Assembly: GCA_021776375.1 (NCBI GenBank)
Contig: JAJFGA010000042.1
Coordinates: forward strand, 1-64,000
DNA length: 64,000 nt
Reading direction: 5' to 3'
Source of the DNA: Hyphococcus sp.
Lineage (GTDB): Bacteria; Pseudomonadota; Alphaproteobacteria; Caulobacterales; Parvularculaceae
Part shown: positions 2,463-19,571 of the stretch, one piece after another
Position numbering within the stretch: position 1 is the stretch's first letter
Layout: each line of letters opens with the position of its first letter
Made by a program: the position numbers and the translations under genes
The notes under the pieces: generated by a model
What the model saw: the letters and a program-made list of their open reading frames with translations, nothing else
Database searches by the model: none
What the model was told of the DNA's origin: nothing

Positions 2463-2972
2463 ATGGGCCTGTCCTTCTTAATCATCGCGATCTGCCTGGT
2501 GTTTGGCTCGATCGCCGCCGTCTTGTCGATACGGCCTAATCTGTTGCCTGAGATTGGCGCTAATCTCAGGCGCGCCGATCCGGTTAAGAAATTCTCGCCA
2601 CGCAACACCCTGTTCATTATCGGCCCGGCGGCAAATCATGCTGCGTGCCGGATGCAACGGCGGCTATTGAAGCCGGCCATCCCCGCCCTCATCCGCGAGG
2701 ATATTGCGGTCATCGAAGTCTATGGGGATGATACGCCACGCAAAAATGGCGATCCGATTGAATGGCTCGACCCCTCGCTGTTGCGCCATGCGCTGGATGC
2801 GGAAAGCGGGTTTTTTCTGATCTATGTCGACCCAGCCGGCAAAGCCCGGTTCCGCAGTGAGGCGCCGATGGTCACCGCCGATATTTTGCAGCGCGCGCAA
2901 CTTGAAATCGACGCACCCAATCGCACGCACGCAAAAAAATCATCCGTTCTAAAAAAATTGCGCGCGGCCTAA
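2463..2972 (+). CDS. Membrane-anchored protein, possibly DUF4174-like
   Basis: A 169-residue protein with one N-terminal hydrophobic segment (about residues 3-22) and a soluble remainder. The region from about residue 48 (TLFIIGPAANHAACRMQ) through IAVIEVYGDD and FFLIYVDPAGKARF has the alternating pattern of the thioredoxin-like DUF4174 family, which lacks a defined function. This assignment comes from pattern memory and is moderate. The gene ends convergently with ugd, their stop codons overlapping. A CtrA-type box lies upstream. Confidence 0.6.
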   Translation: MGLSFLIIAICLVFGSIAAVLSIRPNLLPEIGANLRRADPVKKFSPRNTLFIIGPAANHAACRMQRRLLKPAIPALIREDIAVIEVYGDDTPRKNGDPIEWLDPSLLRHALDAESGFFLIYVDPAGKARFRSEAPMVTADILQRAQLEIDAPNRTHAKKSSVLKKLRAA

Positions 2973-4294
2973 CCCCCATCAAACGTTTCACGCGGGCGTC
3001 CGATGGAGTGGTAATTTATTCCACGCTCGACCATTTCGCGCGGGGGATAGATGTTTCTTAAATCAATCATCACCGGCGCCTTCATAAGCGCCTTGACGCG
3101 ATCAATATCAAGCGCCCGAAATTCGTCCCATTCCGTTATGATGACAACGCCGTCCGCGCCTTCCAGCGCCTGATAGGGGCCTTCGGCATAATCGACATTG
3201 TCCATCAGCAACGCCGCTTCCTTCATTCCGACCGGATCGTAGGCGCGAACCGCAGCGCCAGCCGCCTGAAGTGCGGGCACAATATCCAGCGACGGCGAAT
3301 CTCGCATATCGTCCGTATTCGGCTTAAAAGTCAGCCCTAAAACAGCAATCGTTTTGTTGGTCAGCGATCCGCCGCAAGCGGCAATGACGCGCTCTGCCAT
3401 TTTCTGCTTACGTTCATCATTGATAGCAACAACCGCCTCGACAATGCGCGTTGGCACATCATTGCTTTGCGCGGTGCGCACAAGCGCTATGGTGTCTTTG
3501 GGAAAACACGAGCCGCCATAGCCTGGGCCGGCATGTAGAAACTTTGCGCCGATCCGCCCGTCCAACCCCATGCCGCTGGCGACTTCCTGAACATTGGCGC
3601 CGACCTTCTCGCACAGATCGGCGATCTCGTTGATGAACGTAATTTTTGTCGCAAGGAACGCGTTAGCGGCATATTTGATCAATTCCGAAGTCGCACGATT
3701 GGTGAACACCATCGGCGTCTCGTTGAGATAAAGCGGCCGATAAAGCTCGCGCATAACTTCAATCGCGCGATCATCTTCAAGGCCGACAATGATGCGGTCG
3801 GGGTGTTTGAAATCAGCGATCGCAGCGCCTTCACGTAAAAATTCCGGGTTTGACACCACCGAAAAATCAGCATCCGGACGCGCTTTACGAATGATCTGTT
3901 CAACCTCGGCCCCGGTTCCGACCGGCACGGTCGATTTATTGACGATCACCGTATAACCATTGATGACCGACGCTATTTCCTCCGCCGCGCTATAGACATA
4001 GGACAGATCAGCAAACCCATCACCACGCCGCGACGGCGTGCCAACAGCGATAAAGACGGCGTCAGCGGTCGGTGTTGATGCTACAAAGTCATCGCTGAAG
4101 GACAGGCGCCGGGCTTTAACGTTTTCTGCGACCAGCGCTTCAAGCCCCGGCTCGAAGATCGGCATTTTGCCGGCCTCAAGGCTGCGAATTTTGGCCGCAT
4201 CCTTATCGACGCAGACAACGTCATGGCCAAAATCAGCAAAACAGGCGCCCGATACCAATCCCACATATCCGGCGCCGATGACGGTGACGCGCAT
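2969..4294 (-). CDS. ugd: UDP-glucose 6-dehydrogenase
   Basis: A 441-residue protein that oxidises UDP-glucose to UDP-glucuronate with two NAD+. It has the N-terminal Rossmann motif GAGYVGLVSG (residues 7-16), the NKSTVPVGTG segment, and GGSCFPKDT around residue 260 with the catalytic cysteine. The C-terminal UDP-binding domain includes LGLTFKPNTDDMRDSPS. Full family length. AAGGA lies 7 nt before the ATG. It is the first gene of the polysaccharide region and lies just downstream of the sugar-phosphate transferase gene on the same strand, so the polymer probably contains glucuronic acid or a derived sugar. Confidence 0.95.
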   Translation of the reverse strand: MRVTVIGAGYVGLVSGACFADFGHDVVCVDKDAAKIRSLEAGKMPIFEPGLEALVAENVKARRLSFSDDFVASTPTADAVFIAVGTPSRRGDGFADLSYVYSAAEEIASVINGYTVIVNKSTVPVGTGAEVEQIIRKARPDADFSVVSNPEFLREGAAIADFKHPDRIIVGLEDDRAIEVMRELYRPLYLNETPMVFTNRATSELIKYAANAFLATKITFINEIADLCEKVGANVQEVASGMGLDGRIGAKFLHAGPGYGGSCFPKDTIALVRTAQSNDVPTRIVEAVVAINDERKQKMAERVIAACGGSLTNKTIAVLGLTFKPNTDDMRDSPSLDIVPALQAAGAAVRAYDPVGMKEAALLMDNVDYAEGPYQALEGADGVVIITEWDEFRALDIDRVKALMKAPVMIDLRNIYPPREMVERGINYHSIGRPRETFDGG

Positions 4295-4355: not shown

Positions 4356-5813
4356 TTAAACAGCGTTTTTAGGAAAAACCACCGCCAGAATGGTCAACAT
4401 TAAAATTTTAAAATCGAACCACAACGACCAGGCGTCGATATAGCCGAGGTCGTATTTGACCCTTTGTTCCATAAGTTCGTTTTCGGATGTTTCGCCGCGA
4501 TAGCCATTGACCTGCGCCCATCCGGTAATGCCAGGCTTTACCTTGTGCCGGCCGGAATAGTTTTCAATCAGTTGCGCATATTGGTGGTTGTGCGCCAAGG
4601 CGTGGGGGCGCGGGCCGACAAGCGACATCTCACCGCGAATAACGTTGAACAGCTGCGGCAGCTCATCAAGGCTGTAGCGGCGAAGAAATTTCCCCAACGG
4701 GGTGATGCGAACGTCGTTTAATTGCGCTTGTTGGATTTCCTCGCCGTCATCGGCAACCGTCATGGTGCGAAACTTATAGATCCGAAACACCGCATTGTTA
4801 AATCCGTGCCGCTGCTGCGCAAACAGGATCGGTCCCTTACCCTGTAATTTGATCGTAACCGCGACAAGCAGCAATAGCGGGCTCAGCACGACCAGAAGCA
4901 TCGCGCCGAGCACATAATCCTCGATCGTTTTGATAATGCTGCCCCAGCCTTCCAGCGGGCGGCGATAAAGCGACAATACACTTGCCGCGCCGACTTTGGC
5001 GACTGCGCCGCCCGTATGGTCAAGCCAATGCGTGTTCGGACAAATCGAAATCGATACCGGCAGCGAAGAAAGACGCCGCGCTAGGCAATCCATCTCGGTG
5101 CGTGATGCGCGCGGCGTGGCGATCACGATATCATCAATCTCGCCATTGCGCGCGGCAAGTTCCAGCGCGCTGAGGTCACCGGCGATGGTCTCATCATAGT
5201 CATCGCCGTTGTTGGGGAGCCCCGCCTCAAACAGGCCGACAATCGAAATACCATTTTCCGCGGCGCCGACATGCTCGGCAAATCTGGCGCCCAATTTTGT
5301 CGCGCCGACAATGGCAATCCGCCGCGCGAAAACGCCGCCGTCTCTGATCATTGAGCGCAACAGCCTGGCGGCGATAATTCGCGCCAGGACAATAACAACC
5401 AAGGTCGTCACCGACCATGCAACCAGCCAGACACGCGAAAACATGTCGGATATCTTCAGCGCAAATCCGAAGGCGAGCAGACCCAAAATGACCATTCCCC
5501 AGATCGATACAACCGCCCGGATGTTACCGCTTGAGGATAGGAGTTGATCAAAGTCATAATACCCGTCGCGCCGCAAAAGCGCCGTCATGCCGGTCGCCCC
5601 GACAATGCCGGCCGCAGTGTAGGGTTGGAAATCAAACTCCGATTGGAGTGCAAAAATATGGTAGGTGGCGGCGACGCCGACCGAGATTGCGATCACAAAG
5701 ATGAAGTCAAGAAATTGCACGATATCGCCGAACAGCGCCCGCGACGCCGATGATCGGCGGCGACCGTTTTCACCGGAATAATTCTCTGCGTTACTCACAC
5801 TCGTCTCGGCCAT
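4356..5813 (-). CDS. Undecaprenyl-phosphate glycosyl-1-phosphate transferase (WcaJ/PssY-like)
   Basis: A 485-residue initiating transferase that loads the first sugar-1-phosphate on undecaprenyl phosphate at the inner membrane. There are about four N-terminal membrane segments, a CoA-binding-like Rossmann region near residues 160-260 (IVGATKLGARFAEH), a fifth membrane segment, and the bacterial sugar transferase domain from about residue 290. The latter includes YKFRTM, RRYSLDELPQLFNV, GEMSLVGPRPH and KPGITGWAQVNG. The layout is that of WcaJ-type polyisoprenyl-phosphate hexose-1-phosphate transferases. It lies 61 nt upstream of ugd on the same strand, so the two probably form an operon. Glucose-1-phosphate is the likely donor sugar by family, not proven here. 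Confidence 0.93.
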   Translation of the reverse strand: MAETSVSNAENYSGENGRRRSSASRALFGDIVQFLDFIFVIAISVGVAATYHIFALQSEFDFQPYTAAGIVGATGMTALLRRDGYYDFDQLLSSSGNIRAVVSIWGMVILGLLAFGFALKISDMFSRVWLVAWSVTTLVVIVLARIIAARLLRSMIRDGGVFARRIAIVGATKLGARFAEHVGAAENGISIVGLFEAGLPNNGDDYDETIAGDLSALELAARNGEIDDIVIATPRASRTEMDCLARRLSSLPVSISICPNTHWLDHTGGAVAKVGAASVLSLYRRPLEGWGSIIKTIEDYVLGAMLLVVLSPLLLLVAVTIKLQGKGPILFAQQRHGFNNAVFRIYKFRTMTVADDGEEIQQAQLNDVRITPLGKFLRRYSLDELPQLFNVIRGEMSLVGPRPHALAHNHQYAQLIENYSGRHKVKPGITGWAQVNGYRGETSENELMEQRVKYDLGYIDAWSLWFDFKILMLTILAVVFPKNAV

Positions 5814-6006: not shown

Positions 6007-6231
6007 ATGTCGAAACAATTTTCCGCCTTTCATGTCGCCTGGCGAGACGTCAAGCATCGCCCAATAGGCCTTTTCGCCAATGAGCGCGATTATGGCCGCG
6101 CCGCCGCGGAAGCTTTGCAGGAGAGGCTCAACCAATTGGCCGACGAAGGCTGGATTATCCAGGAAATCATACCGGCCTCAGGGCTGACGCCGCAGCAAAC
6201 GGCGGCGTTTACGGTGGTTGCCTTTCGTTAA
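6007..6231 (+). CDS. Small conserved-looking protein (DUF4177-like)
   Basis: A 74-residue soluble protein starting at an internal ATG (MSKQFSAFHVAW). The core LNQLADEGWIIQEIIPA followed by a short strand (FTVVAFR) resembles the 'LxxLGxEGWELV' pattern of DUF4177-type small proteins; no function is known. AAGG lies about 11 nt before the ATG. It is divergent from the WcaJ-like gene and 61 nt before cysQ, so it may be co-transcribed with cysQ. Confidence 0.6.
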   Translation: MSKQFSAFHVAWRDVKHRPIGLFANERDYGRAAAEALQERLNQLADEGWIIQEIIPASGLTPQQTAAFTVVAFR

Positions 6232-6292
6232 CGCAAGGCATCGACAAACCATCGGGCTTGCATCTCGCCATCGCCTGCGCCATCCCCCCACC

Positions 6293-7096
6293 ATGACCGG
6301 TTATACAAAAGACGACGCGCGGCTCGCAGACGATCTCTGCGCCCTGGCGCTTGCGGCTGGCGCAAAGGCGCTTGAAGTTTACGCCACCGATTTTGTTACC
6401 GAACACAAAGGCGACTCCTCCCCAGTGACCGCCGCCGATCGCCTCGGCGAGGAAATCATTCTGGCCGGGCTCGCGGTCGTCGCGCCGGACATTCCGGTGC
6501 TCGCGGAAGAGAGCGCCTCAGACGGCGATATCCCGCAGCTGGGTGATCTATTTTTTCTCGTCGACCCGCTCGACGGCACGCGGGAATTTGTCAACAAGAC
6601 CGGCGAATTTACCGTCAATATTGCCTTGATCAAAGATGGCCGCCCCGTAATCGGCGTGGTTTACGCGCCAGCGGTCGGCAAACTTTATTGCGGTGTTTTA
6701 AATGATGGCGCGTGGCTGCAGGAGATTGACGACGCCGGCGCGGCGGGCGAGCGCTCAAAGATACGCGCCCGTAAGGCGCCGGACGCTGGCCTCGTCGCCG
6801 TCGCCAGCCGTTCGCATCGCTCACCGGAGACCGATGATTTTCTGGGGGTGATGAATGTCTCTGAGTTTGCCGCCGCCGGGTCTTCGTTGAAGTTCTGTCT
6901 CATCGCAGAAGGCAAGGCGGATATTTATCCGCGGCTCGGCCGCACCATGGAATGGGACACCGGCGCCGGCCAAGCGGTGCTCGAGGCGGCGGGCGGCAAA
7001 GTTGTCGTTCACCCTGGCGGCGAACCATTGGCATACGGAAAAGAAACGCGCGGATATGACAATCCGTATTTTATCGCCTGGGGGAAGACTTCCTAA
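6293..7096 (+). CDS. cysQ: 3'(2'),5'-bisphosphate nucleotidase CysQ
   Basis: A 267-residue inositol-monophosphatase-fold enzyme that hydrolyses 3'-phosphoadenosine 5'-phosphate (PAP), the by-product of PAPS-dependent sulfate transfer. Visible metal-binding motifs are AEES (near residue 70), DPLDGTREFV (near residue 90) and the C-terminal EWDTGAGQAVLEAAGG. I chose ATG at 6293; the frame extends to 6218 but those residues are not family-like. The stop codon overlaps that of the convergent membrane protein gene. CysQ-type genes are often found in polysaccharide regions where sulfation is suspected. Confidence 0.92.
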   Translation: MTGYTKDDARLADDLCALALAAGAKALEVYATDFVTEHKGDSSPVTAADRLGEEIILAGLAVVAPDIPVLAEESASDGDIPQLGDLFFLVDPLDGTREFVNKTGEFTVNIALIKDGRPVIGVVYAPAVGKLYCGVLNDGAWLQEIDDAGAAGERSKIRARKAPDAGLVAVASRSHRSPETDDFLGVMNVSEFAAAGSSLKFCLIAEGKADIYPRLGRTMEWDTGAGQAVLEAAGGKVVVHPGGEPLAYGKETRGYDNPYFIAWGKTS

Positions 7097-8733
7097 CGGT
7101 AGAGAACGGGGCCTGACGTTCGCAGCAGGCTAGCGGGAACTGTCGCCCCGCGCCGCACCCAGATTTCCCAAACCGGGGTTTGCTCCACCATCTTGAATTC
7201 TGTGTAGAGCAGCGCCTCAGCGCGACCGATAGCCTTCGCCGTCGCTGGATCAAGGTCGAGGCGCGGCACGAACACCACACTCGCCGCGCTCGCCGCCGCA
7301 TCGCCGCTGGCCTGGCATTTTCGCCTTTCCGCAAGGACGCAAGCCGTGTCCGCGCCGGTCAAAATCGCAACACCCCACCCTTCAGCCGCCATCGATTTCG
7401 CTCTGCCGGCCGCCTCAAGCAACATCATCGACTGGTCAACCGGCGCCAGCGCAAAGAATTCTCGCGCCTCAACGGTCGAAAAACGACCCTCCTCAATCCA
7501 CTGCGCAATAGTCGGACCACCCGGCTGCACCAGCGCCAACTCGGTGCGGATATTTTCCGGCGCCGCCGCTGCAACCTGATACTGAAGTGCAAATTGTCCG
7601 GCCGCATGAACCACAATCGCAACAGTCCAGAACAGCGTCAGTGCGCCGCCGGTTAAGGCGACCGAAACGCTGGCGCGGTCATGATTGCGAAACAGACCAT
7701 CATAAAACGGCGAGGACACCGAAAACACCGCAATCGCAGCGACTAAAACGAATACCGGAAGCGCATTGGCGCCAGTTAAGCGCGCCGCAATGAAGGCGGT
7801 TATGCCAAGCAACAGCGCCGTCAGCCATGACATGAGATGTTCGCGGCCGCCAAATACAGATGCAGAAAGGAGAATTAAAACCGTGCTGACCACAACGCCG
7901 CTGAGCCCCATGGCGCCGTCGCCGCCAGAAAAAGACGCGCTAACCTGCAAGACACCGCTCGCCGCTGAGGCCCGAGCTATGTTAATGCCCGGCGCCAGCC
8001 ATTCTGCGAGCGCCGCAAGGCTCGCAAACATCGCAAGCGTTGCGGCATAGCGCGACAGGCCGCAGCGCCCGGACAGAAACGGACATGCGGATAGGGCGAT
8101 GAAGCCGGCAAGTGAAAACACTGGATTAAGTTGCCAGAGAGCGAACAGGCCGATCCCGGCTATCAGGCCTTCAAAGCGTGCGCGCGCCGGGGCGTTGTCT
8201 GCCGAAGCGGCGACGAAACAAAAACTCGTGACCAGAAATATCGCGAGCGCAAGCTCGCTCGGGCCCGCGAATGGCGAGGCGACATATGCCCCCAAGGCGC
8301 CCGTCGTTAACGCAGCTGGAATTGTCGGCAATCGCGACGCGGCAAAATACGCCATCGGATAGACTACGAAAAGCGCACTCAAGGCTTTTGCGATGAGGTG
8401 AATGCGTCCCGGCGTTTCGGCGAAAATATCCGCCGCTAAAAGCAGCATCACATAGAAAGGTGATCCATTATCGCTAAGCGCCTCTGCGCCAGCGTTAATT
8501 GCTCGTGCCTCGGCAATCGGCGCAATCATATCGACCGTTGGTGACAGGCTTAACAGGGCCGGCGCCAGAACCGCCGCCAGAATAAACGGCGCCGCTGCCA
8601 GCACTGACCAGAGAAATGACCAGCCAGGTTCCCGCCACGAATAAATCACCATCGCCGCACCACGCGCGACCGGCGCCGGCCGGCGCCAGGCGAAGTCTTC
8701 ATCGTGGTCCCAATTGTCGCTGTTTGCGCTCAT
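7093..8733 (-). CDS. Polytopic membrane protein of unknown function (possible GT-C-like)
   Basis: A 546-residue protein with a short acidic cytoplasmic N-terminus, about ten hydrophobic segments and a soluble C-terminal domain of about 160 residues, probably periplasmic. The first loop (about residues 55-95) contains IAEARAINAG and GSPFYVMLLLAAD, faintly like the first periplasmic loop of GT-C (PMT/ArnT-like) glycosyltransferases, but no decisive motif is visible. ATG 8733 is preferred over TTG 8766 because it follows a short palindrome and begins a typical N-terminus. Its position between EPS genes suggests a role in polymer assembly, which is inference. It lacks the Cys/Arg/His pattern of exosortases. 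Confidence 0.65.
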   Translation of the reverse strand: MSANSDNWDHDEDFAWRRPAPVARGAAMVIYSWREPGWSFLWSVLAAAPFILAAVLAPALLSLSPTVDMIAPIAEARAINAGAEALSDNGSPFYVMLLLAADIFAETPGRIHLIAKALSALFVVYPMAYFAASRLPTIPAALTTGALGAYVASPFAGPSELALAIFLVTSFCFVAASADNAPARARFEGLIAGIGLFALWQLNPVFSLAGFIALSACPFLSGRCGLSRYAATLAMFASLAALAEWLAPGINIARASAASGVLQVSASFSGGDGAMGLSGVVVSTVLILLSASVFGGREHLMSWLTALLLGITAFIAARLTGANALPVFVLVAAIAVFSVSSPFYDGLFRNHDRASVSVALTGGALTLFWTVAIVVHAAGQFALQYQVAAAAPENIRTELALVQPGGPTIAQWIEEGRFSTVEAREFFALAPVDQSMMLLEAAGRAKSMAAEGWGVAILTGADTACVLAERRKCQASGDAAASAASVVFVPRLDLDPATAKAIGRAEALLYTEFKMVEQTPVWEIWVRRGATVPASLLRTSGPVLYR

Positions 8734-8763
8734 TTTGCCCGTTTTCAATCTTGCTTCTTGTCT

Positions 8764-8780
8764 CAAAGCGGCGCGCTTTG
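8764..8780. promoter_or_regulatory. Short palindrome in the divergent promoter region
   Basis: CAAAGCG (8764-8770) and CGCTTTG (8774-8780) are exact inverted repeats separated by GCG, lying just upstream of the membrane protein start at 8733 and about 120 nt from the GST start. It is a possible operator. Confidence 0.3.
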
Positions 8781-9583: not shown

Positions 9584-10699
9584 ATGTCCCCCGCCATCAG
9601 CAATGATGATATCCGAACTGAAGCGCGCGCGCTTGGCTTTGACGCCGTTGGGTTTGCGCCCGCCTCGCTGCCTTCGGAGGCTGGAAAAAACCTGACGCAA
9701 TTTCTAACGCTCGGCCGGCACGGTGGAATGACTTGGATGGAGGGGCGTGCAGAACAACGCAGTTCGCCGCAAGCACTCTGGCCCGAGGCGCGCAGCGTCA
9801 TCATGCTCGGCATGAATTATGGGCCGGACGAAGACCCGCTCGCGACCTTAGCGCAAAAATCATCGGCGGCAATTTCTGTCTATGCAAAAAACAAAGACTA
9901 CCACGAGCTTATAAAAAAACGCCTTAAGCGCCTCGCCCGCTGGCTGATTGAAGAGCATGGCGGCGATGTCAAAGTCTTTGTCGATACCGCGCCAGTAATG
10001 GAAAAGCCGCTGGCGGCGAAAGCCGGCGTCGGCTGGCAGGGCAAGCACACCAATCTGGTATCACGCGAGTTTGGTTCTTGGCTTTTTCTCGGCTCGATTT
10101 TCACAACGCTCGACATTATCGCCGATGCGCCGGAGGCGGATCATTGCGGCTCATGCCAAAACTGTCTCAACATCTGTCCAACCGACGCCTTTCCGGCCCC
10201 TTACCAACTCGATGCCAGGCGGTGCCTATCTTATCTCACCATCGAACATCAAGGCCCGATCCCTATCCAGTTTCGCAAAGCCATGGGCAACCGGATATAC
10301 GGCTGCGACGATTGCCTGGCGGTCTGTCCATGGAACAAATTCGCATCGCTATCACGGGAGACTGCATTCCACGCACGCGAAACATTGCGCACGCCAAGCC
10401 TTTTCGAGCTTGCCGCATTAGATGATCGCGCGTTCAGGAATATGTTTTCCGGCTCGCCGATCAAACGCACGGGCCGCGCCCGCTTTGTCAGGAATGTGCT
10501 GATTGCTATCGGTAATTCGCAAGACCGGGAACTGGCGCCGTCAGCGCAAGCGCTGCTCGACGACGATAACGCACTGATCCGCGGGGCCGCGATTTGGGCG
10601 TTGCGGCAATTGTTGGACGCTAAAGAGATCGCCGACTTACGGCGCCAATTTCTAACACAGGAAAATGATGCAGATGTTATCGCCGAATGGGCGCCTTAA
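9584..10699 (+). CDS. queG: Epoxyqueuosine reductase
   Basis: A 371-residue cobalamin- and iron-sulfur-dependent enzyme that reduces epoxyqueuosine to queuosine in tRNA, the last step of queuosine synthesis. Two 4Fe-4S cysteine clusters are clear: [16 protein letters not shown] (near residue 185) and [14 protein letters not shown] (near residue 240). The substrate-binding region [16 protein letters not shown] lies between them and a HEAT-like helical C-terminus (near 320-360) follows. ATG 9584 is chosen; an in-frame TTG at 9578 overlaps the GST stop. It ends convergently with the G8-domain gene, 3 nt apart. Confidence 0.95.
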
Positions 10700-10702
10700 A
10701 CG

Positions 10703-13700
10703 CTAAATTTCAACGGTAACATAAACCTCGCCCTGGGCGAAGTTGCCATTGTCGTCTTCAACCCAATACCAGAATTGATCCATCCCGGTGAAATTTGGAT
10801 CCGGCGTGTAGGTGACCGTTCCATCATCATTCAAATTCACGCGGCCATTCCTCGGATTAACAAATCCATCCACAGCAATTGGGTCGCCATCAGGATCGAA
10901 GTCATTTGCGAGGACGTCGATGATCACCGAGCTCCCTGAAGTGACGGTCGTGGTCTTATCATCGGTCGCTACCGGCGCCCCGCTGTTGACGTCAAGGACG
11001 CCATGATAAATCGGGTCCGCAAGACCCGATGCTTTCAGCGCCCCGTTAACGCCGCCGGGAATTTCAACAAATTGTGTCTCTTTGATTAATTCGCCCGTAG
11101 CCCTGTCGGCAAAAAGTCGTTCAAAAGCAGTTACGGCCCGCCCATCAGGCAACGTCCAATAGCCTTCCCGCTCGATCGCGTTGCCCAGTGCGTCACCGGC
11201 ATAGACTTGAGGGTCCAGGTCGCCAAGCTCGATAGATCCAATGCTATCGGTTTTGACGCCCGGGAAATTCATACCGAAAAAAGGCGAGCCAACGGGTTCG
11301 AAAAGTGGAAATTCTCCAAGATCGGATTCAAACTCCAAACGACCGGCGACAAGATCAGCGGCGGTCAAAATTTGATCATTTGCATCCAGGTTCGTAAAAT
11401 CAGTGGTGGCGCCGCTAATAGAAACGTCAATGAACGCATACCGATAATCACCGTCAAAGTTCGTGAAGTTGGTTGTTTTATCCATGTCCACGCCGATATC
11501 GAAGCCTTCAATGTTGGCGTTGTTTACAACCAGGTCAAATGTATTCTGCCCCGTGAAAATACCGCTAATGCTGTTGGCGGAGCCAACGAGATCGATATCC
11601 TTCAGCGTGTAACGGCCAGTGTATTCCAGATGAATGCCAAAACGTGTTTCCCAGGCGGTAAAATCTTCGATGAGAGAACGCACATCATGGGCCTGATTGG
11701 GGCCCGGTTTGACAACATAAAACCCTGTGCCCGTGGCAATCGACTCGTTGCCGCTAAACTGAGCGATTGAAGGCCGAAATATTCGCACTTGATCGGAATA
11801 GTTTAAGCTCTCCGGATACGGTGCATTATCAGGATCGACCGGAATTTCATCCCCAAGCGGCGCGCGCGAAAAGTAGATAAATCCCTGTCCGCTAGGTACG
11901 CCGGCGGCGACATTATCTAACGCCTCAACCAACCGTCCCTGGAACCAAAAACCGGAGCCCGTACGGCCAAGGTCAAACTCGGAAACGTCGGGGCCAAATT
12001 TCGGATTGTTATCTAAACCAAACCCAGCCACGCCGATCGATTTTATCGCAATATTGCTAACCCATCGCCCGGTCTCGTTACCGGTCTCAGCCACAAACGC
12101 AGCGCCGAATACATCATAGGCGGCATTATCCGCCAGAATCGCATTTGAATCGTGATGAACCACGCCCCAGCCGGGAGATCCCCAAATGGCGTTGCCGACA
12201 AGTTGGGCAGGGTTGTCCTGATCACTAACACCAGCACGGTGGATATGAAGCGGGTAGCGCGCCTTTATATTGGTGTCAAAATCAACTGAATCCAGTTTAG
12301 CAACATCAAATGCGCGCTCAGACTTATCTGTACGCCCAAGATCTGTAAATTCTGCATAACGAACATCAATATCATCCGAATGCATAAACATCACGTGACC
12401 GCGCTGATGTACGGGCAGGTCATCTGCATTTTCAGTAACAAACCGGACATTGCGCGAGTAGTTGGCGACATAGGCTTTCAGGTCGTCGCGCGGCGTGTCG
12501 TGATCGAACTGCAACGGGCGATCGAATGTTATGACATTGCCATTGATCGCCGTAATGACGAGCTCTTCATCTTCTGTTGTCAGGTCGTTGCGCAGAGTCC
12601 CTGGTGGCAACGGATCAATATCTGCTAACTTCGTTCCGGTTAGAACAAGCCTGTCGCCGACAGCCCAACCATCCGGCGGTGCTTCAAGCGTAAGCGATGT
12701 ATCGCCCGCCATCGCATCTATCGCAACTTTCAGAAAAGTATCTTTTTGATCGCCATAAATTTCAATCGTTCCCTGGCTGATTACGCCGCGAGATAAGAGT
12801 TGCGTGTCCCAAGAAACATCAATCGGACCATTGTCGGCGATCTGAATAATAGCCTCAACGCCAGGCGCCACAGGATTGTCGGCAGTACCTATCGTCAACG
12901 TGCCGATTGGAGAAACGATCAGAGTATCAACTTCCATGAAGGAATTTTGATCTGTGGCGAATTCAAGCACGCCATCGACACGGACGGTAAACAGGGATAC
13001 GGCGCTTTCACCGTCATAGGTGACCTTAACGCCTTCGGAGATCAACACTTTGGCGCCTTCCGGCGGCACTTCGCTATTTGCCCAAGTATTGGGATCAAAC
13101 CAGGAACCATCATTAACGGCGACATGCGTTGCTTCATGTACCGGGACGAGGTTCAAGAGGGCCTCATGCTCAGCCGCCTTGGAGTCTCCGACATGGTGGT
13201 GCCCGCCTGAGCCACCGTGACCGCTTACGGCGGGTTCTTCATGCGGTACGTCGCCAACGATGACTTCAACAGACGCCGAACTAACCGCACCGTTCGCGTC
13301 CCGGACCTCATATGAGAATGTCGCCACCCCCTCAAAGCCGGCATTTGGCACAAATGTCACGCCGGAGCTGTCCAAAAATACGGTTCCATTTACCGCATCA
13401 AAAACACGCACGATTTCCAGTCCGCCAAAACCTGCATTGGAGTCGTTGGCTTGCAATTGCGAGGCAGAAATAAGCAGCGGTTGATCGACCTCAGCATGAA
13501 CGTGGTCATCTACCGCGTTGAGGGCGACATCGACATTGCCGAAGATATTGTCGTCGCCTGTACCGGGAGCCGCTGCGCCGCCGCCCGTAACGGGAGCTGT
13601 AGCGCCATCATCAGCTGCACCGAGTGGAATATCTTCCTTGCCGACACTCAGACAGCCTTCCGCCGCCAGCAAAGGCGCCAACACGCTGACGTTCATCATC

Positions 13701-13846
13701 TTCTTGCGGCTCGCGCGTTTTCTTGCGCGCCGGCCTGTCGCCTGTGGCGCCTTGATGGCGCCAAGCTCACTGGCCATTAACAAATCGTTTATGTTCATTG
13801 AATTAGCGGAAAGGACAGCATCGCCGGAGCGAAATTCTTTGCTCAT
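10703..13846 (-). CDS. Large secreted G8-domain protein, CEMIP/TMEM2-like, with flanking cadherin-like domains
   Basis: About 1047 residues. A basic N-terminus (RRARKRASRKK near 40-50) precedes one hydrophobic stretch ending in AAEGC. Next come a cadherin/Ig-like tandem-repeat domain (about 110-200), a His/Gly-rich linker, and a G8 domain (about 240-360; GSWFDPNTWANSEVPPEGAK, then strand-turn repeats). The following region holds the features of animal CEMIP/PKHD1-type proteins: WAVGDRLVLTGT, SRNVRFVTEN, RGHVMFMHS and RYPLHIHRAG, followed by right-handed parallel beta-helix repeats to about 830. A second cadherin-like domain (about 960-1047, IIDVLANDFDPDGD) ends the protein. Human CEMIP and TMEM2 act on hyaluronan; a polysaccharide substrate here is inference. 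ATG 13846 has a better upstream sequence than GTG 13858. No RTX repeats are visible, so the export route is unclear. Confidence 0.85.
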   Translation of the reverse strand: MSKEFRSGDAVLSANSMNINDLLMASELGAIKAPQATGRRARKRASRKKMMNVSVLAPLLAAEGCLSVGKEDIPLGAADDGATAPVTGGGAAAPGTGDDNIFGNVDVALNAVDDHVHAEVDQPLLISASQLQANDSNAGFGGLEIVRVFDAVNGTVFLDSSGVTFVPNAGFEGVATFSYEVRDANGAVSSASVEVIVGDVPHEEPAVSGHGGSGGHHHVGDSKAAEHEALLNLVPVHEATHVAVNDGSWFDPNTWANSEVPPEGAKVLISEGVKVTYDGESAVSLFTVRVDGVLEFATDQNSFMEVDTLIVSPIGTLTIGTADNPVAPGVEAIIQIADNGPIDVSWDTQLLSRGVISQGTIEIYGDQKDTFLKVAIDAMAGDTSLTLEAPPDGWAVGDRLVLTGTKLADIDPLPPGTLRNDLTTEDEELVITAINGNVITFDRPLQFDHDTPRDDLKAYVANYSRNVRFVTENADDLPVHQRGHVMFMHSDDIDVRYAEFTDLGRTDKSERAFDVAKLDSVDFDTNIKARYPLHIHRAGVSDQDNPAQLVGNAIWGSPGWGVVHHDSNAILADNAAYDVFGAAFVAETGNETGRWVSNIAIKSIGVAGFGLDNNPKFGPDVSEFDLGRTGSGFWFQGRLVEALDNVAAGVPSGQGFIYFSRAPLGDEIPVDPDNAPYPESLNYSDQVRIFRPSIAQFSGNESIATGTGFYVVKPGPNQAHDVRSLIEDFTAWETRFGIHLEYTGRYTLKDIDLVGSANSISGIFTGQNTFDLVVNNANIEGFDIGVDMDKTTNFTNFDGDYRYAFIDVSISGATTDFTNLDANDQILTAADLVAGRLEFESDLGEFPLFEPVGSPFFGMNFPGVKTDSIGSIELGDLDPQVYAGDALGNAIEREGYWTLPDGRAVTAFERLFADRATGELIKETQFVEIPGGVNGALKASGLADPIYHGVLDVNSGAPVATDDKTTTVTSGSSVIIDVLANDFDPDGDPIAVDGFVNPRNGRVNLNDDGTVTYTPDPNFTGMDQFWYWVEDDNGNFAQGEVYVTVEI

Positions 13847-14160
13847 AATCAGGCTCACTCACACATTTGTCTGCAATCGGACAGTAAACAGTATCTTTCT
13901 CGCCACACCGAACAATTTTTCTTGCACGATGCGATTGTGCAACAGGTAAGAAATTAGGAACCTTAGATTTCTTTTGTCTGAAGCTCCTGAAAACAATTTG
14001 ATGAAAATAAGCCGATCACGGATTAAATTTTCACAAGTTTCAAGAGCAGCCGCACGAATCCTCAATCTCGAAGATCAAGTTACTATAGGCGCCTTGAAAA
14101 TGAATCTAAAATTTTATCAACCTAAGCCCGCCGAAGACCGGCAGGCCGGCGCAGCGGCGC
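13847..14160. other. Intergenic region upstream of the G8-domain gene
   Basis: This 314-nt stretch separates two leftward genes and is more AT-rich than its neighbours. No ORF in it looks real. It probably holds a promoter for the G8-domain gene, but I could not fix -35/-10 boxes, and no strong terminator hairpin is visible after the oxygenase gene. Confidence 0.4.
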
Positions 14161-14988
14161 TTAACGGCTAAGCTTTCTTAAGCCCCGCACCAGTATGGGA
14201 GGTAACAAATCGTTAATGATCTCGTCCCGCTTCACTGCCCAGTCAACTTTGTCGCCTGTTTGCGGTCGAGGTTTAAATTGAGTCGTCTTTTCACGAGCCG
14301 TGTCGTCCCAGGTTGCGGTGTAGTAATAAAGCGCAATCGAGCGGCGCGCCTCACCACCCGGATGTGCGACCGGCACCGGATGACCGTGATAGCTCTTACC
14401 GCTGGTTGAAAACACAACACAGCGATTGAACAGCGGAACAATTCTGTGTCGAAGGTGTTTCATATCGCAATCCCAAAGCTCAAGTTCCCCGCCGAAACCT
14501 TCCTCCCAGTCCTTGTTGAGGTAAATCAACAAATTCAGGCGCCGCTCAAGTCCAAGTTTACGATGCATGTTGAAATCGGCATGGACATCAAGATGTCCCC
14601 CCGATTTGGTTTGATGAAATCCGCCGCCGACAAAATAAGGGTCGGGAATAAGACCGGCAATGCCGGTCATGTTTTCTAAAAACTCGATAAACGGCCGCGA
14701 ATTCATTGAATAAAAGAAAGAGCGTAGTTGCGGTGTCAAAAAATCAGGATTGAAGCTAGTTTTATAGCGCTCCTGGTCGCGGTCGAAGCTGCGACTATCA
14801 GGGTCCAGTGTCTGTGGAAACGCGGCAAGACATGCATCGAGAATTTGCGGCGAACAAAAATCATCTATGGCGATATGTGGAAAGGGCTCTGCCGAAACAT
14901 ATTTATCGTGCAGGTCGGCGCCCTTGCCCTGCATCTCCGATACATCAAAAAATCCGAACTGTGTATCCGCGATCTCAAGATAGCTCAT
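14161..14988 (-). CDS. 2OG-Fe(II) oxygenase (prolyl-4-hydroxylase-like)
   Basis: A 275-residue cytoplasmic dioxygenase that would use 2-oxoglutarate, O2 and Fe(II) to hydroxylate a substrate. The iron-binding triad is visible as HAD (H136, D138) and a distal His in SYHGHPV (H201 or H203). The 2-oxoglutarate-binding arginine is in RRSIALYYYT (about R216). The double-stranded beta-helix strands RRLNLLIYLN and FGGELELW fit the family. It lies between a GT2 gene (73 nt upstream) and the G8-domain gene on the same strand, so it may modify a sugar, a lipid or that protein. The substrate is unknown. Confidence 0.85.
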   Translation of the reverse strand: MSYLEIADTQFGFFDVSEMQGKGADLHDKYVSAEPFPHIAIDDFCSPQILDACLAAFPQTLDPDSRSFDRDQERYKTSFNPDFLTPQLRSFFYSMNSRPFIEFLENMTGIAGLIPDPYFVGGGFHQTKSGGHLDVHADFNMHRKLGLERRLNLLIYLNKDWEEGFGGELELWDCDMKHLRHRIVPLFNRCVVFSTSGKSYHGHPVPVAHPGGEARRSIALYYYTATWDDTAREKTTQFKPRPQTGDKVDWAVKRDEIINDLLPPILVRGLRKLSR

Positions 14989-15061: not shown

Positions 15062-16258
15062 TTATTTCGTCTTACCGCCATCATTATCGCGCTCGGTGCG
15101 GGTCCAGGTCTTTGCTGAGGCCCGCCCGCGCCGCCCATAGACCTTCAGCTTCTGAAGCATAAATGGCGCCAACGCCCATAATTGTGACGCTGGCAACGCC
15201 GTGCGCCCAAAGCGTAACCACCCGGCGACAAGCGCCAGCACAAATATCGCAATTGAAGTCAATATAGCGACGAGCGGCCCAGGCCCGGTAAATCCGATCA
15301 TTAAGGCTGACAATACTGCGGCAAGACCCAAACCGGCGCCAAGCGCCACAAGCGGCGGTATCATCGCATCCGCAGCCAGCAGTATCAGCTTCACATCGGC
15401 CCGCAACATACCGTGCAACATCGCCGGCGCCGCGTGGCGCGCCATAATCTCCAGCGACCCATACTCCCATCGCGCGCGTTGGGTGACGCTAGCGTCTTGG
15501 GCCGTTGGAAAAAAGCTGGTCACTTGCGCATCTGGCGCGAAGACGGGCGGCGCGCCGGCCGCCGCCATTTTCAGCGTCATTAGCAGATCTTCGGTTATGT
15601 CGCCGGCGGCAAAGTCCAGACGGGAAATCAGCTCCCATGGCGCAGCCAATCCCACCCCGGTAAAACGTGTGACATCAAAGAGATTTGAAAGGCCAGTCAT
15701 GCGTACACGGTTGATCATAATCCATGCAAATGCCGACACGCTTGTTCCGGGCCTGGCGCCGTCTGGAGCATTCATCATATTCAGCGCCTGCGCCGGGCGT
15801 CCGCTTGCGCAAGCGACGCCAGCCAAATGTTGTAGCGCACCCTCACCAACCCGGCAGTCAGCGTCGAAGAAAGCAATACATTCCGGCGGCGCATCACGCA
15901 GGCAATCAATCGCATATTGCAACGCATAACCTTTGCCACGATGATCCGGCGCCGCACGATCAAAAACCTCTGCGCCACAGTCTTCAGCGACCGCGGCGGT
16001 GTCGTCGGTGCAATTATCGGCCACAACAATCAGCCGATCGTCAGGTCGCAACTGCGCGCGAAGGTCGCGCAATGTTGCAACCATATGACGGCCTTCATTA
16101 TGCGCGGGAACAATTACCGCCAGAGACGACGGCTGGGCGCCAGTAGATTGCCGGCGCAGCGGGAAGAACGCCGCCAGCGTTTCGATGATAAGCAAAACAA
16201 CCGGCGCCGCTGCCGTCAGCGCGACACCCCAAAGCAGAACGGTGAAAACCGCATTCAT
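15062..16258 (-). CDS. Glycosyltransferase family 2
   Basis: A 398-residue inner-membrane glycosyltransferase. An N-terminal membrane segment (about 5-30) leads to a GT-A domain with VIVPAHNEG, VVADNCTDDT and the metal-binding FFDADCRVG (DxD-like) motifs. A QRARWEYGS segment (QxxRW type) follows near residue 255, and two or three membrane segments (about 285-355) end the protein. This layout is that of processive or polyprenyl-linked EPS glycosyltransferases. Its ATG overlaps the stop of the upstream GT4 gene by 4 nt, so the two are translationally coupled. The sugar added is not known. Confidence 0.9.
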   Translation of the reverse strand: MNAVFTVLLWGVALTAAAPVVLLIIETLAAFFPLRRQSTGAQPSSLAVIVPAHNEGRHMVATLRDLRAQLRPDDRLIVVADNCTDDTAAVAEDCGAEVFDRAAPDHRGKGYALQYAIDCLRDAPPECIAFFDADCRVGEGALQHLAGVACASGRPAQALNMMNAPDGARPGTSVSAFAWIMINRVRMTGLSNLFDVTRFTGVGLAAPWELISRLDFAAGDITEDLLMTLKMAAAGAPPVFAPDAQVTSFFPTAQDASVTQRARWEYGSLEIMARHAAPAMLHGMLRADVKLILLAADAMIPPLVALGAGLGLAAVLSALMIGFTGPGPLVAILTSIAIFVLALVAGWLRFGRTALPASQLWALAPFMLQKLKVYGRRGRASAKTWTRTERDNDGGKTK

Positions 16259-17469
16259 GAACGCGCCTCTAAAGCGGCTGAAAAATATCCGGCCAAATGC
16301 CCCGCTTCGGTATCAATATCGTGCATCGTTTCGACCCGTTGACGGCCTTCGTCACCCATCTGCGCAATCTTGTCGTCATGGGCGTTTATAGCCGCCAACA
16401 AGGCCGTTGTAATCGCATCAATATCGCCGGCGGGGGTCAGCCAGCCACATAGGCCATCCTTCACCAATTCGGGTATGCCGGCGATATAGGTTGTAATCAC
16501 CGGCCGACGTAACGCCAATGCCTCCATGATTGAAACCGGCAGCCCCTCCGCATAGCTCGGCAAGACAAAGCCGCGCGCGCCAAGCAACGCCTCGCGCACT
16601 TCATCCGGCGTCTTCCACCCTGCAAGCACAACATTGCGGCCAATATCATGGCGACGGATCGCCGCCTCGATTTCATCCCGCATCGGTCCGTCGCCGATTA
16701 ACGTGACTTTCACTTCGGGAACATCTTTTACCACTCGCGCCGTCGCCTCAACCAGATCTATCTGGCCTTTTTCTGCACACAGACGGCCCGTGCAGATAAA
16801 ATGTGGCGCAGAGACAACATTGTTTCCGACGCCCTGATAGAAGGCGCGTTCAATGCCGCAACGAACAATTTTAATTCTCGGCCAGACAGACGGCGAAGAC
16901 AGTTTCTTCAATTGGCTGGCGCCAAATTGTGAAATGGCGACGACAAATGAAGCGTTATCAATTTTGCGCCGCAGTGAAATAAGCGCCGGTTTTTCAAATT
17001 CCTCCGGCCCATGGACCGTAAAGCTAAAACGCGCCCGCGCCAGCGACGCTGCAAGCATCGCAATCGTCGCCGCGTTGGTGCCAAAGTGTGCATGAACATG
17101 GCGCAGACCATCCCGCCTTAGCCAATTGGCAAGGACAAGCGCCTCGCCAAAATAGAACACGTGCCGCAGCAGACCAGCCTCTGAACGCCACCCCATGGAC
17201 AGCGCCGCACCCAGCGCACGCACAACGCCTAGAGGGTTAGTAAAAATTTCACCGAGCACCGACCATATTATTGAGCCCGCACCAGCATTAATGATGTGGC
17301 GGGTCTTGGCGCTCTCTTCGATATCTTCCTGCGCGATCACTTTATCCTTAGGCGGACGGATGGCGAAGCGAATAACCTCAGCGCCGCCGCGCTCCAACGC
17401 CTGGATTTCACGGCGAATGAAACTATGGGAAATTCCAGGATACTGGTTAATAAAATAAGCCAGCTTCAT
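16255..17469 (-). CDS. Glycosyltransferase family 4 (colanic-acid-type)
   Basis: A 404-residue GT-B enzyme. The N-terminus (KLAYFINQYPGISHSFIRREI) is typical of the WcaL/EpsD-like EPS transferases. The C-terminal donor domain has FICTGRLCAEKGQIDLVEA and the EX7E-type segment SYAEGLPVSIMEALALRRPVI near residues 310-330. It transfers a sugar from a nucleotide donor to the lipid-linked EPS unit at the cytoplasmic face. It lies 23 nt downstream of the ATPase-GT fusion and overlaps the GT2 gene by 4 nt, inside a single leftward gene run. Confidence 0.92.
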   Translation of the reverse strand: MKLAYFINQYPGISHSFIRREIQALERGGAEVIRFAIRPPKDKVIAQEDIEESAKTRHIINAGAGSIIWSVLGEIFTNPLGVVRALGAALSMGWRSEAGLLRHVFYFGEALVLANWLRRDGLRHVHAHFGTNAATIAMLAASLARARFSFTVHGPEEFEKPALISLRRKIDNASFVVAISQFGASQLKKLSSPSVWPRIKIVRCGIERAFYQGVGNNVVSAPHFICTGRLCAEKGQIDLVEATARVVKDVPEVKVTLIGDGPMRDEIEAAIRRHDIGRNVVLAGWKTPDEVREALLGARGFVLPSYAEGLPVSIMEALALRRPVITTYIAGIPELVKDGLCGWLTPAGDIDAITTALLAAINAHDDKIAQMGDEGRQRVETMHDIDTEAGHLAGYFSAALEARS

Positions 17470-17492: not shown

Positions 17493-19571
17493 TTATCGCT
17501 TTGCCCCGAACCATAATTTGCAGGCGCCCAAAAATTCGGGGAACCGCCCCATGACAGCCGAAAACGCCGCCTTCCAAGACCCGAGTTTGAAGGCGCCCCG
17601 GACCACCACAGAGGCGGCGAGCCGGAAGATAAACACGCCAGCCCCGAAGGCCAAAATCGCGCCTGCAATAAATATCGGCGGCGTCGCCGGCGAAAATTTT
17701 GTCGCCACAAGCGCTCCCAGCAAAGCTGCGATAATGATTGCTGCGGGAAATAAAAATCCCCACAAAACCGCCAACACCGTATCCATCATACCCAGACGTT
17801 CCGGCGGCCCGCCATGCAGCGATGCGCAATAGGCGTTTTCAAACCCTCGCCTGCGAGCTTGCGCCCACCAACCACCGGGCTTTGCTTCAGGTCGGCCCAG
17901 CGCCATCCCTTCGTCCAGGCGCCAGATCCGGGCCCCGCGCCGCCGCAGGCGGACACATAAGTCCTCTGTTTCCGCCGTCAACAGATCACCGCGAAAACCA
18001 CCCGCCGCTTCAAAGCTCTCCACCCGCATCAACGCCGACCCGCCATAGACACACTGGATCTCGCCTTCGTCATCGGCTTGATCGCGCGCGCCCGTCGGCG
18101 CTGCGACCAGTTTCGATCCGCTATGAGACTTTACGGCGCCGGTCACGATCGAGACTTCCGGCCGCCGCGCCATAAATTTTTCCGCAATTGCAATCCAGTC
18201 CGGGTCAAGAGCAATTTCCGCATCGACAAACTGAACATATTGCAGATGTGGCGCGATCTTTTTCAGCTGGCGATAACCGGCATTGCGCGCGCGCCCCGCT
18301 GGGGTGAATGAACGCTCTGGTCCCTCGGCGATAACAGCGCCCGCCCGCTTGGCTATTACCGTTGCATCCGGCGCTCCGCCTACCGCCACAAAAACGATGG
18401 CGCGCCCGTCGCCCGCCGAGCGGATCGCCGCTTCCGGCGAAGTTTTATTGTTGGAGGCAACGACAACCACGCCGGTTATGGATGATTCTTCTTTTACCCC
18501 GGAAAACCGCGGCATCGTCTCACGCGACTGGTCACTGGCGCGCTGCGCAACCTCGACGATGACGTCGTCGGCGCGGTTTTCAATCTCAAAATTGTCATCG
18601 TGTAGCGGCGCTGGCGGCGGGCGCCGATCATCACGCTGCGCGGCTATAGCCTCGTCATTATCTTTGCGGCGGCTTTTTTTTGGATTATCTGCAAACGCAT
18701 CAATGCCAACCTCGCTAGCCGGTCTTAGCGGCGGCGCGGCGGCATCATCAGACGCCAGCCCAAATACGCCAAATTCTGACTTGTCACGAATAACATTGCG
18801 AATCGTCTCCACGCCAACAACTAACTCCTCAGCGGAAAACGCATAGACAAGAGCCGTATCGGTGATGATATTAATGACCCGTGGAACGCCGCGGGAATGC
18901 TCTGCAATTGAGTCTATAGCGCGATCGGTAAACACACGTCGCCGGCAACCGGCGATCGCCAATCGCGTGTCGATATAGGCGTGAACCTCTTCTACATTGA
19001 GCGGCGTAAGATGAAAATCCGAACCGACGCGCTGCGCCAGCTGCAACAGCTCCGGCTTGTTGAGGATCTCTTTCAATTCCGGCTGCCCAACCAATATAAG
19101 CTGCAAAAGCTGATCTTTGCCCGCGTTGATATTGGAAAGCATGCGCAATTCTTCGAGCATGTCGGTGGACAGATTTTGCGCCTCGTCAATGATCAGAACA
19201 ACGCGCCGGCCTTTGGAATATTCACTGATGAAGAAAGACTGCAGCTGAGAGAAAAGCTCAACATGGGTCTTGCCCGCGAACGGCTCACCAAAACCCATCA
19301 GCACCCAGCTTAAAAGGTCGCCCCGACCTTGCTGGATGTTCGACAACAGCGCAACGGTATGAGTGTCGGACAACTGATCGAGCAAACGATGAACAAGGGT
19401 GGTCTTGCCGCACCCGACCTCGCCGGTAATGACCGATATACCGGCATGGTTGAGGACGCCATATTCGAGCATCGCATAGGCAAGCCTGTGGGTCCGGCCC
19501 CAATATAAAAATGCGGGGTCGGGCTGGATCGAAAACGGCTTTTCACTCAGGCCAAAAAATTGTTCGTACAT
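17493..19571 (-). CDS. AAA ATPase (ExeA/XrtA-associated type) fused to a membrane-anchored glycosyltransferase-like domain
   Basis: A 692-residue two-part protein. Residues 1-270 form an ExeA/GspA-like ATPase: the N-terminal MYEQFFGLSEKPF, Walker A GEVGCGKTT (50-58), Walker B VVLIIDEAQNL (124-134) and RGVPRVINI near 230. Residues about 275-370 are a charged low-complexity linker. The rest resembles a GT-A transferase: FVDAEI as the DxD-like site, YGGSALMRVESFEAAGGF, and TEDLCVRLRRRGARIWRL. Two membrane segments follow near 600-650. The ATPase is the kind found in PEP-CTERM/XrtA EPS clusters as a separate protein of about 350 residues. The reading frame is continuous, so the fusion is not a sequencing artefact of stops. 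The GT part lacks an obvious QxxRW motif. Confidence 0.85.
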   Translation of the reverse strand: MYEQFFGLSEKPFSIQPDPAFLYWGRTHRLAYAMLEYGVLNHAGISVITGEVGCGKTTLVHRLLDQLSDTHTVALLSNIQQGRGDLLSWVLMGFGEPFAGKTHVELFSQLQSFFISEYSKGRRVVLIIDEAQNLSTDMLEELRMLSNINAGKDQLLQLILVGQPELKEILNKPELLQLAQRVGSDFHLTPLNVEEVHAYIDTRLAIAGCRRRVFTDRAIDSIAEHSRGVPRVINIITDTALVYAFSAEELVVGVETIRNVIRDKSEFGVFGLASDDAAAPPLRPASEVGIDAFADNPKKSRRKDNDEAIAAQRDDRRPPPAPLHDDNFEIENRADDVIVEVAQRASDQSRETMPRFSGVKEESSITGVVVVASNNKTSPEAAIRSAGDGRAIVFVAVGGAPDATVIAKRAGAVIAEGPERSFTPAGRARNAGYRQLKKIAPHLQYVQFVDAEIALDPDWIAIAEKFMARRPEVSIVTGAVKSHSGSKLVAAPTGARDQADDEGEIQCVYGGSALMRVESFEAAGGFRGDLLTAETEDLCVRLRRRGARIWRLDEGMALGRPEAKPGGWWAQARRRGFENAYCASLHGGPPERLGMMDTVLAVLWGFLFPAAIIIAALLGALVATKFSPATPPIFIAGAILAFGAGVFIFRLAASVVVRGAFKLGSWKAAFSAVMGRFPEFLGACKLWFGAKR

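Follow-up and report, generated by a model that had tools for sequence, protein, structure and literature searches.

Closest described systems

Several described proteins come close to the subject of this report, a G8-domain protein encoded on the minus strand at positions 10703-13858 of a 64,000-nucleotide stretch of contig JAJFGA010000042.1 from Hyphococcus sp. (Parvularculaceae), a stretch that is hereafter called the window. The mannuronan C5-epimerases AlgG and AlgE4, which have a beta-helix in common with the window protein (structural Z-scores of 21-23.5), act on finished polysaccharide and carry a DPHD motif; in an exopolysaccharide (EPS) pathway, AlgG is active during export. RbmB of Vibrio cholerae, which is not known to have a G8 domain, is the best working analogue. 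In PMC11637428, it is described as a lyase of Vibrio polysaccharide, the organism's own biofilm polymer, and is likewise a beta-helix protein acting on the EPS of the same cell.

In domain composition, the animal proteins CEMIP (KIAA1199/HYBID) and TMEM2 (CEMIP2) share with the window protein a G8 domain, a long beta-helix and seven polar residues. Unlike them, the window protein lacks the GG (lectin-like) domain 1 and possesses a GRTD(K) motif and cadherin-like domains. Whether TMEM2 is an enzyme that degrades hyaluronan (HA) is disputed among three papers from 2023, two against and one, claiming intrinsic activity, in favor (PMC10474455), and no active site could be assigned in the TMEM2 crystal structure (PMC10206443). 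The accessible portion of PMC10276149 places the HA-degradation mutations in the GG domain (220-387), including all loss-of-function changes listed there (R187 in CEMIP; R265, D273, D286 and H248 with A303 in TMEM2). Bacterial CEMIP-type proteins (three in the alphaproteobacterium G305, two in Croceibacterium atlanticum) comprise a G8 domain, a beta-helix and the same seven residues as well, but they are much closer to TMEM2 than the window protein is, and no EPS genes were recognised at the loci seen. As bacterial G8 proteins are annotated in public records, the kind is already known. Nonetheless, a search of the openly accessible literature, judged by listed titles and abstract openings, returned no description of an EPS-linked bacterial G8 branch, nor of a conserved site outside the GG domain that is shared with TMEM2.

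Domain architecture of the window protein

The open reading frame (ORF) is open throughout and encodes 1051 amino acids from a GTG at 13858. The in-frame ATG at 13846, where a preceding sequence-only reading of the window had let the gene end, is the likelier start because most relatives begin with 'MS..' at that place. Across 21 loci (L032-L052) the protein is conserved at 48-81% identity (best segment), and the ORF is therefore not a chance one. The nearest named records belong to Marinicaulis (now Hyphococcus) and other Parvularculaceae. The features of the gene and its protein are as follows:

10703-13858, minus strand: G8/beta-helix ORF
13922-13942, no strand assigned: TTGC-N13-GCAA inverted repeat, putatively operator-like, 96-76 bases before the ATG
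13652-13696, minus strand: lipoprotein-like signal, residues 55-69 (MNVSVLAPLLAAEGC), with a putative lipobox
13244-13525, minus strand: N-terminal cadherin/Big_9-like domain, about residues 112-205 (Pfam and tandem-95 matches)
12731-13087, minus strand: G8 domain, residues 258-376, counted on the model of TMEM2 as the opening portion of the beta-helix
12449-12706, minus strand: presumed small inserted beta-sandwich (after the description of TMEM2), with the near-invariant W398, D402, H453, R469 and N470
12074-12397, minus strand: conserved polar set H488, R534, H538, H540, H569, E591 and E595, a candidate active or binding site
11846-12271, minus strand: CEMIP_beta-hel match (Pfam)
10976-11419, minus strand: small C-terminal domain, residues 814-961, without a clear structural match
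10715-10978, minus strand: C-terminal Big_9/cadherin-like domain, residues 961-1048 (Pfam)

Pfam recognises G8 (60.2 bits, curated cut-off 22.9), CEMIP_beta-hel (41.3 bits, residues 530-671, curated cut-off 27.3), Big_9 (109 bits) and Cadherin_5 (101.6 bits). The latter two match in two stretches each, above their curated cut-offs, the strongest at residues 961-1048 and a weaker one N-terminally. Hence, the G8 domain, the CEMIP-type beta-helix and the cadherin-like domains near both ends that the sequence-only reading had proposed are all present. So are the motifs it had singled out, WAVGDRLVL (containing W398 and D402), RGHVMF (H488) and YPLHIH (within RYPLHIH, 534-540), which rank among the most conserved stretches over 47 aligned rows. 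The profiles PF10162 (G8) and PF24606 (CEMIP_beta-hel) match all 26 members of the family alignment at E ≤ 0.01. In a tblastn search of plasmids, tandem-95 proteins and others align with the stretch around residues 109-209. For the small domain at 814-961, Foldseek gave no solved structure at an E-value of 0.001 (best Z 3.6), and its matches to RbmA and other proteins were too weak for use.

Linkage to exopolysaccharide loci

Co-occurrence was assessed in 62 genomes taken as Parvularculaceae, in which the EPS locus was scored by a marker protein, an ATPase fused to a glycosyltransferase (GT)-like part, at 460 bits or more (next genome 224). The locus is present in 35 genomes, and 30 of these carry a linked G8 gene versus none of the 27 without the locus (Fisher test, 7e-13, kinship not corrected). 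Two of these 27 (G050 and G058) have a G8 protein elsewhere though the EPS locus is absent. In each of the 30 linked loci (L002-L031), the G8 gene adjoins QueG. Loci L032-L052 lie on the same contigs as 21 of these 30 and are hence not independent of them. Among them, the ATPase/GT and GT2 genes occur upstream in all 18 loci with at least 5 kb of upstream flank, and a 2-oxoglutarate (2OG) oxygenase gene lies within about 2 kb upstream of G8 in 12 of the 19 with enough flank. A WcaJ and a dehydrogenase gene are present in 12 of the 13 with enough downstream flank (exception: L048). Five genomes bear the locus and no linked G8 gene. G016 has its G8 gene at another site; in G006, G021, G047 and G048 no G8 protein was found, and the gene immediately behind the EPS genes, or in G006 behind the 2OG gene, is QueG. 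As these four keep the EPS locus without a G8 gene, the latter is accessory to EPS. The window GT4 and GT2 genes found no match in G047 and G048, nor did GT4 in G021; therefore, these EPS loci are not all complete copies.

The association recurs outside the family. Of 106 records from a tblastn search in plasmids, nine matched over at least 47% of the query, and the next one listed over 14%. All seven from Rhodobacterales lie inside polysaccharide clusters, which hold glycosyltransferase genes and, in varying combinations, genes for Wzz, export, GH16 and sulfotransferases. A Rhodobacteraceae locus from a metagenome-assembled genome (L054), amid WecG, flippase and GT4 genes, brings the Rhodobacterales count to eight out of eight. 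The two remaining plasmid records, from Croceibacterium and Planctomyces, belong to the CEMIP-type group and are not in polysaccharide clusters. By keyword, 52 of 84 neighboring features on five plasmids are polysaccharide-related; in control stretches far from the gene on the same plasmids, the count is 6 of 122 (Fisher test, with features not independent). By BLAST, the Ruegeria conchae cluster has four gene types in common with the window locus and the other seven none or one, so that these seven are built differently from the window locus. The Leisingera and Salipiger clusters look homologous to each other, which reduces the number of independent Rhodobacterales cases to perhaps three or four. 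Considering synteny, co-occurrence and the loci of other families, the link with EPS genes is far stronger than the sequence-only reading could have shown. EPS linkage is strong, not universal.

Further G8 genes occur in several genomes. Three loci of g2 genomes (L061, L062 and L066) encode a second G8/beta-helix paralogue with a core identity of 41-43%. By eye, ATP synthase genes lie nearby and a PriA-like gene follows it, and no EPS genes were recognised; in L062, two copies of it are separated by a peptidase-like gene. The Leisingera sp. NJS201 plasmid (L086) carries a tandem G8 gene pair at 6179-7746 and 9893-12912. Each copy is split near the same place into two overlapping frames, a G8 half and a beta-helix half; a frameshift that was duplicated along with the gene, an error in sequencing or a genuine gene in two parts could account for this. 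The 6 kb contig L067 (G027:C171) encodes a divergent G8 protein beside a beta-helix-like ORF (by eye), which may stem from a phage or from a different organism binned together with G027.

Predicted fold and conserved polar residues

An AlphaFold2 model of residues 225-1051, built with 25 relatives, reached a core predicted local distance difference test (pLDDT) score of 87.4 and a predicted template modeling (pTM) score of 0.89. The human TMEM2 ectodomain was the first PDB match (Foldseek E-value 8.3e-16), and a second structural alignment with it gave a Z of 26.7 and a root mean square deviation of 2.8 over 496 residues at 18% identity. The structural comparison suggested by the sequence-only reading thus supports the G8/CEMIP relation. 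TMEM2 is followed by AlgE4 (Z 23.5), NosD (21.9) and AlgG (21.5), then phage tailspikes and, lower down, RbmB (20.5, across 300 residues only) and a K1 capsule lyase (18.7). Judged by title, the majority of the best 50 fold matches are carbohydrate-acting beta-helix enzymes or tailspikes; the surface adhesin PfbA is also among the matches.

Seven polar residues of the helix stand out in the alignment: H488 and R534 are found in 47 of 47 rows, H538, E591 and E595 in 46, H569 in 45 and H540 in 43. Their TMEM2 equivalents, counted by eye on printed alignments, are H519, R546, H550, H552, H585, E608 and E612 (with a numbering offset of 82, checked against Cys554, Cys750 and Cys940 named in PMC10206443). 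The five residues of the presumed beta-sandwich are also near-invariant, as are a number of W, N, D, T and E residues at other positions, and some of the near-invariant residues are surely structural. The seven residues are a candidate active or binding site and may belong to one site. Exceptions are L091 (540 and 569), L055 and L056 (540) and L065, in which 538, 540, 569, 591 and 595 are all lost. The L065 gene (7862-9667, genome G016) adjoins an ABC transporter and an HlyD-type gene, not recognised EPS genes, and the EPS-locus marker of this genome is on another contig. A joint loss of five of the seven residues is what would be expected if the set worked as a unit, although this is one case only, on a cut contig. 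The L065 protein may be a binding-only form.

Place in the G8 superfamily

The tree comprises 47 core rows, the window included; it was built by a quick method from bacterial rows, several long branches are flagged, and L086 was excluded since its genes are frame-split. Six CEMIP-type rows, a distant Planctomyces row among them, stand apart (Shimodaira-Hasegawa-like approximate likelihood ratio test, 99) from the other 41, which carry a GRTD motif. In the window protein, this motif reads LGRTDK (residues 507-512) and opens a low-confidence model loop (512-533). The window protein falls within a Parvularculaceae group of 22 rows (support 97). A CEMIP-type protein of G305 matches human TMEM2 with an E-value of 2.6e-93 as a single sequence, while the window-family profile does so at 0.023, fourth in the list and weak by itself. 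This weaker match and the tree position outside the CEMIP-type group rule out CEMIP orthology. Judged from sequence, the window protein is a member of the G8 superfamily, not of the CEMIP group. In the class, G8 is scarce: among 385 sampled genomes, 3 have it, one of them the genome of the window.

Neither the window family nor the one CEMIP-type bacterial protein compared with TMEM2 has a counterpart of the GG domain. Positions 164-186 of the window-family profile stand opposite TMEM2 chain 158-344 (two local matches), and positions 177-186 of the CEMIP-type bacterial protein opposite TMEM2 167-341. The link with hyaluronan is not transferable to the window protein, because the GG domain with its loss-of-function residues is missing, and the label 'hyaluronidase' by homology was dropped for the same reason. 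Given the tree and the missing domain, the closeness to CEMIP and TMEM2 that the sequence-only reading had seen is not supported. The three CEMIP-type proteins of G305 (L088-L090), encoded in one genome and scoring 274-287 bits to CEMIP_beta-hel, may be the most suitable bacterial proteins for modeling CEMIP itself.

N-terminal signal

The window protein is probably exported and lipid-anchored. Its sole cysteine, Cys69, closes a lipobox-like stretch behind a long basic N-region, and Gly-Cys is found in 17 of the 21 rows that have this end, namely in 16 of 16 of the A2 alignment (window included) and in L046; the sequence of L040 is cut. In a myxococcal relative, inspection by eye points to a short lipoprotein-like signal. 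When the 75 conserved N-terminal positions were searched against the 62 family genomes, nothing better than an E-value of 0.001 appeared beyond G8 proteins and one fragment (a 184-aa frame in G027). A single-sequence search of the own genome returned the protein itself and one weak match (E-value 0.48). As the matches are confined to G8 proteins or the fragment, a general sorting signal is ruled out.

Proposed role and alternatives

The reading that we favor, at about even confidence, makes the window protein an enzyme, held at the cell surface, by which the cell's own EPS is cut or edited. As a right-handed beta-helix protein that is exported and probably lipid-anchored, it would act on the EPS from the neighboring locus, its presumed substrate. 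The helix set H488/R534/H538/H540/H569/E591/E595 would cut the chain (as a lyase or hydrolase) or edit it otherwise, during or after export, and the cadherin-like domains may serve as spacers or matrix contacts. The protein would then be an accessory polymer editor with a role like that of RbmB, outside EPS synthesis, and likely a matrix-editing protein added to the EPS loci of marine alphaproteobacteria. Cutting appears more likely than epimerising or binding only.

Several points weigh against this role. Domains, fold match, gene linkage, accessory status and conservation are shown, whereas we infer the substrate, the anchoring, the union of the conserved residues in one site and the enzymatic activity, which is putative in every bacterial member. 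That the seven residues line the helix groove is a guess, and part of the conserved residues may have no task beyond stabilising the helix. The lipobox-like stretch has a Glu at position -2, which departs from the usual lipobox, and 4 of the 21 rows lack the cysteine (L045, L048, L051 and L052). Nine loci of the same clade are without recognised EPS genes (L061, L062, L066, two of the cyanobacterial RI_101, G016, G050, G027 and G198). At the unlinked loci, the absence of EPS genes was judged from ORF starts by eye, a few Pfam scans and weak BLAST, and for Croceibacterium and Planctomyces from annotation. BLAST with the window EPS genes is a poor detector, since three EPS-annotated loci were unmatched, and L053 and L063 are too short for judging the neighborhood. 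In the animal relatives, the HA-related mutations published in the accessible portion of PMC10276149 lie in the GG domain, which is absent here; the same portion reports human TMEM2 as inactive on HA and mouse TMEM2 and human HYBID as degrading it. The TMEM2 ectodomain gave no HA degradation in PMC10206443.

This last result would also suit a matrix protein or adhesin that binds EPS without catalysis. The helix and the cadherin-like domains would then tie the polymer to the cell, and the conserved residues would do no more than bind sugar or metal. Cadherin and Big_9 domains are typical of adhesins, PfbA is found among the fold matches and the presence of the gene is accessory. Yet the His/Arg/Glu-rich set is nearly invariant over 47 rows despite differing flanking domains, and the nearest folds are mostly enzymes by title, which leaves the adhesin as a rather doubtful alternative. 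We think it improbable that the protein is a polymer-level uronate epimerase in the manner of AlgG and AlgE4, one that alters a sugar within the completed polymer and leaves the chain uncut. Although both epimerases come close behind TMEM2 in structural score, AlgG acts at the export step and a probable UDP-glucose dehydrogenase is encoded near the locus, sequence identity to the mannuronan epimerases is 11-13% and their DPHD motif is absent from the 1051 residues. Uronate in the EPS of the window organism is hypothetical. The uronate argument of the sequence-only reading is circumstantial: a dehydrogenase is conserved near the locus at the 12 loci counted above, but several Rhodobacterales G8 clusters have sulfotransferases.

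The distant relation to CEMIP and TMEM2 and the EPS-unlinked paralogues in the same family would also fit a secreted hyaluronidase-like or scavenging enzyme that degrades foreign polysaccharides for nutrition and stands beside EPS genes by accident. This is very unlikely given its fixed place in 30 genomes, where it closes the EPS locus beside QueG, the EPS clusters that again surround the Rhodobacterales relatives and the missing GG domain. Moreover, no uptake or degradation genes were recognised among the neighboring genes scanned.

Returning to the surface-held EPS enzyme, a wider reading is conceivable that we advance with little confidence: the superfamily at its root may consist of enzymes for acidic extracellular polysaccharides, of which the bacterial GRTD branch would cut or edit the EPS of its own cell, while animals would have reused the helix site for hyaluronan and added GG for capture. 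If true, the seven residues would be the missing active site of CEMIP (H519/R546/H550/H552/H585/E608/E612 in TMEM2). With a GG-less bacterial relative fixed beside the genes for its presumed substrate, the dispute on TMEM2 as an enzyme becomes simply testable.

Upstream inverted repeat

The repeat before the G8 gene is kept as TTGC-N13-GCAA in 9 of 21 upstream stretches; this form, looser than the exact one, is seen in certain relatives at a greater distance. By itself, the palindrome does not stand out from shuffled sequence (34 of 100 single-base shuffles) and is notable only by its conservation. In its exact form, TTGCAC-N9-GTGCAA, the window has it once and the genome (84% complete) has it at a single place; with this uniqueness of the six-base form and the conservation, separate control of the G8 gene is plausible. 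A regulon shared with EPS operons did not emerge, since mismatch-tolerant counts are near control or chance: at up to one mismatch, the genome contains 8 places versus 5 for the control, and looser matches in the window number 30 versus 35.6 by chance.

Gene neighborhood in the window

The EPS glycosyltransferase genes that the G8 gene was said to follow are real, though most EPS genes were named from NCBIfam models under their cut-offs, hence '-like':

14161-14988, minus strand: 2OG-Fe(II) oxygenase (Pfam), adjoining the G8 gene
15062-16258, minus strand: GT2 glycosyltransferase, EpsU-like (Pfam, NCBIfam)
16255-17469, minus strand: GT4 glycosyltransferase, EpsE-like (Pfam, NCBIfam)
17493-19571, minus strand: XrtA/PEP-CTERM-type ATPase fused to a glycosyltransferase-like part, the EPS-locus marker
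19634-22078, minus strand: TPR protein, PrsT-like (NCBIfam)
22138-23406, minus strand: WecG/TagA/CpsF glycosyltransferase with a STAS domain
23977-25596, plus strand: Wzz-type chain-length protein
25620-26441, plus strand: EPS tyrosine-autokinase-like protein (NCBIfam)
4356-5813, minus strand: WcaJ-type undecaprenyl-phosphate glucose phosphotransferase (above cut-off)
2969-4294, minus strand: nucleotide-sugar (probably UDP-glucose) dehydrogenase, TuaD/AglM-like

The UDP-glucose dehydrogenase named in the sequence-only reading stands as a nucleotide-sugar dehydrogenase beside the WcaJ-type transferase. It exceeds the cut-off of the general model, but its best model, TuaD (UDP-glucose 6-dehydrogenase), matches under its own cut-off, so the narrower name stays probable. 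Between the FzlA and CysQ genes, at 7093-8766 on the minus strand, lies a gene for a 557-aa membrane-like protein that matches no Pfam family even at an E-value of 1. Relatives keep it next to the locus, with identities of 46-94%, and it could belong to the EPS system.

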